The notes beneath the pieces are model-generated. The model was not told the DNA's origin and made no database searches. It saw only the letters and a list, made by a program, of their open reading frames with translations. Made by a program: the position numbers and the translations under genes. DNA of 64,000 bases from Candidatus Pantoea edessiphila (GTDB lineage Bacteria > Pseudomonadota > Gammaproteobacteria > Enterobacterales > Enterobacteriaceae): assembly GCF_002933335.1 (NCBI RefSeq), contig NZ_PDKS01000001.1, forward strand, positions 248,001-312,000, read 5' to 3'. Below, piece by piece: positions 39,985-63,209 of the stretch. Position 1 is the first letter of the stretch, and every line of letters starts with the position of its first letter.

Positions 39985-41577
39985 ATGGTTCGTCAAAAAA
40001 AAATTTTTATGGCAGCTGTAACTATGCTGACTGTTTTAATTAGTAATGTAACCAATGCAGTAGAGGTTTATAATAAAAACAACACTAAATTAGATATATA
40101 CGGTGAAATAGATGGTTTTCATTATTTATATCCGAATGCTTCTTTAAATAAAAATATTCCTTTTGATTACCGTCAAAACTATTTTATTTTTAATGTTCCG
40201 CGAGAAAATAACACAGGATTAGACAAAAGTCGTGCTAATTTTGGGTTTAAAGCCGAAACTTTACTGGATGATAATATAATAGGATATGGACAATTACAAT
40301 ATGATTCTCCCTTATATATGCCTGAAAGTACAACAAATTCTACTAGTAGAGCTACTTTAGGTTTTGTGGGCATTAAATCTCCTTTAGGATCTATTGATTA
40401 TGGACGTAATTATGGAGTTATTCATGATGTAAGTAGTTGGACTAGTGTTCTTCCAGAATTTGGTGGTAATTCAGAATATTCAGATAATTTTTTAGCTGGT
40501 AGAAATAGCGGATTATTTACATATCGTAATAAAGATTTTTTTGGAATCAAGAAAAATCTAAATTTTGCTATTCAATACCAAAGCCAACGTGCACCTAGTA
40601 TTGATGTTATGCATTTTAATGGAAATACTTTAGGAGCATCAATTTCCTATGTATCTTCATCTGGTTTAGGAATAGCCGCAGCATATGGCAATAGTATGCT
40701 TATTAAAGATCATTCAACTACTCCTGAACCAAAAAATAAACCAAAAAATGAACCAAAAAATGAACCAAAAATTGATCAAAATAATGGACCAAAAATTGAC
40801 CAAAATAATGGACCAAAAATTGACCAAAATAATGGACCAAAAATTGACCAAAATAATGGACCAAAAATTGATCAAAATAATGGACCAAAAATTGATCAAA
40901 ATAATGGACCAAAAATTGACCAAAATAATGGACCAAAAATTGACCAAAATAATGGACCAAAAATTGATCAAAATAATGGACCAAAAATTGACCAAAATAA
41001 TCATCTAAACGATGATCTAAATGATGTACCAAAAATTGACCAAAACTTTGACCACAACAATCATCTAGACAATGATATAAACAATGACCTAACAAATGAC
41101 TTAAAAGGTGATTCAAATAAAGTAGCCGTTGTTAATAAAAAGAAAGATGATGCAAAGTCAAATTTAGATCCAAAAGATAATGCAAGACAATGGTCTGCTG
41201 CTATCAAATATGAAAAAGATCATATATACTTTGCTACAATGTATGGGGAAACACTGTCTACAACCTATTTAGAAAAAGCAGGCAAGGACTATGTTAGTGG
41301 TTTTGCTGATAAAATACGTAATTTTGAAATAGTTGGAAAGTATAAATTTGATTTTGGTTTTTCCCCCTCTATAGCTTATATAGTATCAAAAGTTCAAAAT
41401 ATGCAGGGTGGAAATACTTATCTATACAGATATCTCGATATAGGTGCGACTTATAATCTTAGTAAGAATATGTCAACATATATTGACTACCGTATAGATC
41501 AGAAAGAATCCAAGGGTCTATTAAATTTTAATGATCCGGATAATATTTTGGCAATAGGTTTAGTTTACAAATTTTAG
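39985..41577 (+). CDS. ompF: General porin OmpF with expanded repeat loop
   Basis: This is a trimeric-type outer-membrane porin. A signal peptide of 25 residues ends in TNA. The mature chain starts VEVYNKNNTKLDIYGEIDG, and the end VYKF with C-terminal Phe is the porin insertion signal. The constriction-loop region contains VLPEFGGNS. The 530 residues far exceed the usual 360 because about 140 residues (roughly 248-390) are inserted between GIAAAYGNS and RQWSAAIKYEKD, a point that corresponds to an external loop, probably L5, of E. coli OmpF. The insert holds short PKNE repeats, ten PKIDQNN units and an Asn/Asp-rich tail. On both sides the barrel strands are intact. The position between asnS and aspC identifies it as ompF. 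Confidence 0.96.
   Translation: MVRQKKIFMAAVTMLTVLISNVTNAVEVYNKNNTKLDIYGEIDGFHYLYPNASLNKNIPFDYRQNYFIFNVPRENNTGLDKSRANFGFKAETLLDDNIIGYGQLQYDSPLYMPESTTNSTSRATLGFVGIKSPLGSIDYGRNYGVIHDVSSWTSVLPEFGGNSEYSDNFLAGRNSGLFTYRNKDFFGIKKNLNFAIQYQSQRAPSIDVMHFNGNTLGASISYVSSSGLGIAAAYGNSMLIKDHSTTPEPKNKPKNEPKNEPKIDQNNGPKIDQNNGPKIDQNNGPKIDQNNGPKIDQNNGPKIDQNNGPKIDQNNGPKIDQNNGPKIDQNNGPKIDQNNHLNDDLNDVPKIDQNFDHNNHLDNDINNDLTNDLKGDSNKVAVVNKKKDDAKSNLDPKDNARQWSAAIKYEKDHIYFATMYGETLSTTYLEKAGKDYVSGFADKIRNFEIVGKYKFDFGFSPSIAYIVSKVQNMQGGNTYLYRYLDIGATYNLSKNMSTYIDYRIDQKESKGLLNFNDPDNILAIGLVYKF
40765..41004 (+). repeat. Ten tandem 24-base units in ompF coding PKIDQNNG
   Basis: Units start at 40765, 40789 and every 24 bases to 40981. 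Apart from the last codon of the tenth unit (CAT for GGA), the only difference is GAT or GAC for the Asp codon: GAC in units 2, 3, 4, 7, 8 and 10, GAT in 1, 5, 6 and 9. Upstream are three 12-base units coding PKNK/PKNE, and downstream is a degenerate copy at about 41032. Confidence 0.98.
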
Positions 41578-63078: not shown

Positions 63079-63155
63079 AATGATATCAAACAATATTCAA
63101 AATAACTATGAATATTTAATGATATCAAACAATTTCACAATAACTATGAATATTT
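63079..63155. repeat. Near-perfect 38/39-base tandem duplication
   Basis: A 39-base unit (63079-63117) beginning AATGATATCAAACAAT is followed by a 38-base copy (63118-63155) with a few differences, both ending AACTATGAATATTT. It lies between yohD and ybhL. Confidence 0.92.
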
Positions 63156-63209
63156 AATGAATAATAGTTAATTATATACAATAAGTTTCATATTTTGAGG
63201 ATAGTTTTA

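Follow-up and report, generated by a model that had tools for sequence, protein, structure and literature searches.

Different in-frame tandem repeats in a predicted external porin loop, and in other proteins, of Edessa stink-bug symbionts

The locus described here raises the question of why a porin which is otherwise of the ordinary OmpF type should carry, in what is predicted to be an external loop, ten nearly identical copies of an eight-residue unit. The original prediction proposed that the tract is a variable surface structure facing the host or the contents of its gut; the comparison with related symbionts, in which similar arrays are found both at the same site and in proteins that are not exposed at the surface, leads to a different reading.

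The porin gene and its repeat tract

The window, that is, the whole stretch of 64,000 nucleotides that was analysed, belongs to a genome of 840,997 bases in 11 contigs, 99.9 % complete, in which the array lies on a contig of 374 kb; it is that of a symbiont of Edessa stink bugs from the Candidatus Pantoea edessiphila group, probably SoET. According to the accessible portion of PMC8032781, the symbionts of this group are extracellular, inhabit crypts of the posterior midgut and are typically passed on in maternal deposits. The relatives used for comparison, with one genome per species, were Candidatus Pantoea edessiphila SoEL, SoEE and SoEO, Pantoea sp. SoEX and SoBr, the last being, we infer, the symbiont of Brachystethus (genome G003); a scan of genome contigs with the single porin protein retrieved no relative, while a profile scan of the genus did reveal them. 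In a tree built from six concatenated proteins (GrpE and DegP without SoBr, NadK without SoBr and SoET), SoET groups with SoEX (support 97) and SoEE with SoEO (72), SoBr being the outgroup.

The features of the gene are collected in Table 1. The composition of the tract is as originally described: the three short PKN(E/K) units, the ten 24-bp units, which start at 40765, 40789, ... 40981, and the Asn/Asp-rich tail are all in place, and a listing of the units confirms that, apart from the last codon of the tenth, which changes PKIDQNNG (nine of the ten units) into PKIDQNNH, they vary only in the Asp codon, GAT or GAC, in the order T C C C T T C C T C. The best TRF score of the gene is 491, whereas 500 codon-shuffled versions of it gave no score above 69, so that the array is not due to chance. 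Within the 24-bp unit, two diverged halves, of 11 and 13 bases, can be made out that resemble the 12-bp PKNE word; the second half is in another frame, which would point to growth at the level of the DNA rather than to selection for one peptide. The 12-bp PKN(K/E) units are a possible seed of the main array, and the tail is perhaps an older array that has decayed. A 132-aa open frame on the minus strand was set aside as a candidate gene, as it mirrors the repeat and is without other support.

Table 1. Features of the porin gene and of its repeat tract, in positions of the window.
Feature	Position	Strand	Basis
OmpF-type general porin, 530 aa	39985..41577	+	Sole match to this porin in its own genome; PF00267, E 1.4e-73
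Ninth strand of the barrel, residues 228-240, preceding L5	40666..40704	+	AF2 model
Whole loop L5, residues 237-401, 165 aa	40693..41187	+	Alignment and model
Three 12-bp units, PKNK PKNE PKNE	40729..40764	+	Sequence
Ten 24-bp units, PKIDQNNG, the last PKIDQNNH	40765..41004	+	TRF and unit listing
Degenerate Asn/Asp-rich tail	41005..41130	+	Sequence; weak 24-bp TRF row at 41056-41105
Tenth strand of the barrel, residues 397-411, following L5	41173..41217	+	AF2 model

Could the array be an artefact of assembly, with wrong copy numbers? The assemblies are drafts, exact repeats reach 184-298 bp in the MreC arrays considered below and 191 bp in the porin of SoEL, and in the window's genome an exact duplicate of 127 bp, close to where a contig of 3.8 kb ends (L063:3370-3624, G000:C2), may be an assembly overlap. 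The available text of PMC8032781 states that its own genomes were obtained from 2 x 300 MiSeq reads and credits SoET to earlier work; the reads behind the SoET assembly were presumably of the same length. Against an artefact, exact repeats within the SoET porin gene extend to 95 bp at most, the GAT/GAC differences mark separate units, and SoEL, SoEX and SoEO carry arrays at the same place, so we regard this explanation as very improbable.

That the protein is an ordinary porin apart from its insert is borne out by the match to the general bacterial porin family (PF00267, Porin_1), whose score of 248.7 bits is far above the cut-off of 23.7. It exceeds the 362-aa precursor chain of OmpF by 168 residues; the original prediction placed all of these in one block, and this holds for about 146 of them, which by alignment fall in L5, while most of the rest are in the N-terminal half, chiefly near loop L1. 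The insert aligns between residues 215 and 231 of the OmpF precursor chain and gives the loop its 165 residues, compared to about 15 in E. coli OmpF. AF2 modelling, based on nine sequences, likewise places the insert between the ninth and the tenth strands in the best of five models, which forms a sixteen-strand barrel if E27-29 and E34-48 are counted as one strand; its mean pLDDT is 59.5 (50.1 to 30.6 in the four others), the low values being found mainly in the insert and in some loops, with less than 50 over residues 242-395 and values near 30 in the insert. In a Foldseek search, the TM-score by target to OmpF crystal entries was 0.79-0.81, and the 50 matches listed were porins such as OmpF, OmpC and OmpK36/37, or else models or variants of such porins. 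By the topology of OmpF, we take the turn that joins strand 9 to strand 10 to be the external loop L5; the insert is thus predicted to occupy L5 and to be disordered, hydrophilic and exposed, in agreement with the outside position, probably L5, which had been proposed for it.

Loop L5 in related symbionts and the loss of lipid A

The five Edessa-symbiont porins are 57-70 % identical over gap-free columns. Loop L5 varies between sister species far beyond what a single genome could suggest, its length being 165 aa in SoET, 448 in SoEL, 118 in SoEO, 81 in SoEX and 39 in SoEE. Four of the five Edessa symbionts examined have an array in L5, with differing units; the loop of SoEE is without one. The porin of SoEL, of 809 aa, contains in L5 words of the NSNP/SHPN type together with about eight 27-bp units encoding DKNINTDKN. 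SoEX and SoEO both have DNK arrays, with different codons (GATAACAAA in SoEX vs GATAATAAG in SoEO), and, given the grouping of the tree, these two arrays are not in sister species. The porin of SoBr is normal, with 366 aa and an L5 of 27 aa (hand count).

Outside the genus, none of the matches listed has an open frame longer than 447 aa, and thus no stock of known porins with the same insert came to light; nor was an array of this kind seen in any porin when TRF was applied to 31 loci outside the Edessa group (three of which, L028, L041 and L045, yielded no complete porin frame), the top score, 210, belonging to a repeat away from the porin match (L045 2586-2697). This repeat, 39 bp x 2.9, is on a contig that also encodes a distant porin relative of 25 % identity and whose title, 'Rickettsia typhi MAG', looks doubtful. 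In a symbiont of Nezara viridula (L041:5935-6777) the porin frame ends at 280 aa, with the last strands absent, and is either a pseudogene or the product of a sequencing error.

A second explanation is suggested by the state of the outer membrane. LpxC is absent from all five Edessa symbionts examined and present in SoBr with its porin of ordinary size, and the available text of PMC8032781 reports the lipid A pathway as lost in all Edessa symbionts (lpxA being kept in some) and retained in SoBr; BamA was found in 6/6 genomes. The absence of LpxC, combined with its retention in SoBr, makes a protein coat attractive: in these LPS-less symbionts the main porin might have become a surface coat, its long hydrophilic L5 tethers forming a shielding, hydrated brush in the place of LPS, in which case length and hydrophilicity of the loop would be selected and its sequence left free, with minisatellites alternating; since any hydrophilic repeat would suffice, the unit could change freely. 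In keeping with this, L5 is occupied in the majority of these species, and even the array-free loop of SoEE is longer than those of SoBr and E. coli OmpF. On the other hand, there is a single evolutionary contrast to rely on, SoEE has neither LpxC nor an array, and the arrays of GrpE and MreC require no surface role. Moreover, LpxC is missing in 11 of 60 genomes, and the six of these with a porin among the matches listed are the five Edessa symbionts and G026, a non-Edessa genome whose listed porin has a normal length of 365 aa. We judge a selected coat, although the main rival of the reading favoured below, to be unlikely; loss of LPS as a sufficient cause was rejected, since SoEE and G026 speak against it.

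Repeats in proteins of other compartments

In the whole genome of SoET, four coding arrays score above 200, namely those in MreC, in porin L5, in a DegP-type protease and in GrpE (MreC and GrpE were named by Pfam, while 'DegP' denotes here a protein in which trypsin and PDZ domains were recognised). In MreC, the C-terminal tail contains a 21-bp unit repeated 15.2 times and encoding DSSDNTS (L066:4910-5228, G000:C6), of which 15 units are identical, so that, with an exact repeat of 298 bp, the copy number is uncertain; the N-terminal tail of GrpE has seven identical 18-bp units encoding TIEQEN (L048:8167-8292, G000:C4), and the protease has five 36-bp units preceding its protease domain (L074:11480-11658, G000:C5). 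The latter array was seen in none of the four other Edessa copies read, and the copy of SoBr is a 464-aa frame.

Of SoEL, 660 kb were scanned, and coding arrays scoring above 200 were found there in three genes, for the porin, for MreC (SSDN, 12 bp x 16) and for GrpE (AELEKS, 18 bp x 9); SoEE carries arrays in GrpE (18 bp x 11), in MreC (30 bp, about nine units) and in a protein identified by eye as carboxypeptidase-like, whose five 30-bp units (L145:9767-9916, G001:C5) come just past an apparent signal peptide. Three different 18-bp units thus fill the GrpE N-tail in SoET, SoEL and SoEE, and units of 21, 12 and 30 bp, respectively, the MreC C-tail. The GrpE of SoEX contains TIDQEN SIEQEN, a two-copy form of the TIEQEN array of SoET, and that of SoEO a degenerate array (score 71), while SoBr GrpE is a frame of 204 aa; no MreC array was found in SoEX, SoEO and SoBr. 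A dihydrolipoamide succinyltransferase-like protein of SoEO, also named by eye, carries an 18-bp unit three times in the linker that follows the lipoyl domain (L126:9546-9605, G005:C5).

GrpE is cytoplasmic, whereas the tail of MreC and DegP are periplasmic. Repeats thus occupy sites of orthologous proteins in three compartments, and in GrpE, MreC and the porin the units differ between sister species. This bears directly on the role first proposed for the porin tract and on the wider idea of surface variation toward the host or phages, whereby copy number and unit would vary within a population and alter recognition. The external position of L5, its divergence between species and the near-identical units, whose 24-bp step keeps the frame as originally noted, would all suit such a role. 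A host-facing structure is nevertheless unneeded as the main cause, the same genome having comparable arrays in GrpE, MreC and the DegP-type protease; life in midgut crypts with inheritance typically through maternal deposits, as described in the accessible part of PMC8032781, makes immune escape less expected. We hold this explanation to be even less likely than a coat. As the 24-bp units are in frame inside the coding region, the porin gene also lacks the frame or promoter switch of a phase-variable contingency locus.

The distribution of the arrays indicates a filter for the reading frame. At thresholds of at least 2.5 copies and a score of at least 100, applied to five genomes, 2.56 Mb in total (SoET in full, 660 kb from SoEL, 340 kb from SoEX, and 360 kb from each of SoEO and SoEE), the period is divisible by three in 13/13 arrays in open frames vs 3/7 outside (hypergeometric P ~0.007, by hand), a count which leans to its result because an array is called 'coding' only when a 100-codon frame is open through it; the MreC array of SoEE lies outside the scanned stretches and is left out of these counts. 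With looser thresholds (1.8 copies, score 80), the figures are 20/22 and 18/61. A look that does not depend on the frame call places 0/7 of the non-coding arrays inside one frame open on both sides; a frame filter is supported, with the caveat just given for the count. One of the seven, an array of SoET with three exact 22-bp copies (L052:17583-17649, G000:C4), between plus-strand frames of 615 and 518 codons, is either intergenic or a break in a gene. Repeats were also seen outside long frames in SoEL (40 bp x 5.3, 100 % identical and intergenic-looking; L190:10612-10824, G004:C7) and in the window (38 bp x 2.1, at 63079-63160).

The coding strand of 12/13 coding arrays has an A content above that of the open reading frames of the window (0.37 A), the mreC array of SoET barely so (0.38), the exception being SoET degP with 0.26; nine of the 13 are in envelope proteins, a point against the reading favoured below. 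Arrays outside genes are mostly lower-scoring, which departs from what unlimited neutral growth would predict. The three SoEL genes with coding arrays above 200 are all among the four of SoET, an overlap whose probability by chance is about 0.03 with ten equal sites and 2e-4 with fifty (by hand); such repeated hits in the same genes are unlikely unless tolerant sites are very few, and leave room for selection there. A simulation of the concentration in three genes was set aside, its count being biased by the choice of GrpE and MreC after SoET had been seen and by the partial scanning of four genomes. Loss of recombination or of mismatch repair was discarded as a cause, RecA and MutS being present in 6/6 genomes.

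A likely origin and comparison with known systems

The explanation we favour, with a probability of about 0.7, is recurrent in-frame growth of minisatellites at a few tolerant, disordered sites, among which porin L5 is the most often occupied. Short A-rich DNA words would duplicate in tandem through replication slippage or unequal recombination, and the resulting arrays would then be homogenised, decay and be replaced; those surviving would be the ones that leave the frame intact and whose added residues, disordered and hydrophilic, come at a site able to tolerate them. Such sites would be few (porin L5, the GrpE N-tail, the MreC C-tail), L5 being filled oftenest, and the product would be a working porin bearing a long, floppy tether outside the cell. 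This reading supposes the mutational mechanism, tolerance of the repeats rather than an adaptive need for them, and production of the full-length protein.

An array of like kind is found in GrpE, a cochaperone of the cytoplasm, and the presence of repeats in a protein of the surface is therefore no proof of selection there. With the same sites, different repeats and tiny genomes devoid of LpxC, the five sister genomes amount to a natural replicate experiment on protein loops gaining long disordered repeats, in which it is now testable whether loss of the outer-membrane glycolipid keeps the porin loop long or whether this loop simply tolerates repeats.

As to known systems, the SoET porin shares with the enterobacterial OmpF, OmpC and PhoE (PF00267) the barrel, the PEFGG motif before the third constriction loop and the C-terminal Phe, its solved relatives being OmpF, PhoE and OmpK37; it differs from them in its L5, which counts 165 residues where about 15 are usual. 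That external loops tolerate changes in length and vary in it is illustrated by PorA of Neisseria, P2 of Haemophilus and the insertion of epitopes into loops of PhoE. To our knowledge, the variable porin loops of pathogens do not comprise long arrays of many copies whose units differ from one sister species to another. A literature search by titles and the beginnings of abstracts returned no porin with such arrays among the matches listed, and the words 'porin', 'ompF', 'grpE' and 'mreC' are absent from the main text of PMC8032781 as far as it was available.

The closest parallel in reduced insect-symbiont genomes is an array in an envelope gene, the tolA of Blochmannia, the endosymbionts of ants: in the part of PMC4389277 available, it is described in five of six species, varying between them in length and in repeat sequence, with none found in the sixth. 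It differs from the present case in that the gene is that of TolA and the units are of 81-102 bp, while here several genes are concerned, including those for a porin loop and GrpE. A second likeness is to the archaeal Borg elements, whose repeats, in the accessible portion of PMC9879509, are near-perfect at the DNA level and A-enriched, encode disordered products, and are of recent, independent origin with hotspots in homologous regions; the units within Borg genes are all divisible by three, those between genes mostly not. The periods of the symbiont arrays, with the above reservation on the 'coding' call, and the A enrichment of all but one coding array follow the same pattern. Borgs, however, are extrachromosomal archaeal elements with hundreds of arrays, whereas here a handful of sites is found in a bacterial genome, the porin array being on a large contig of it and not on a Borg element. 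Compared with both systems, what seems new within the literature searched is the occurrence in a porin loop, the number of genes involved and the way in which, in a lineage without LpxC, units are replaced from one sister species to the next.
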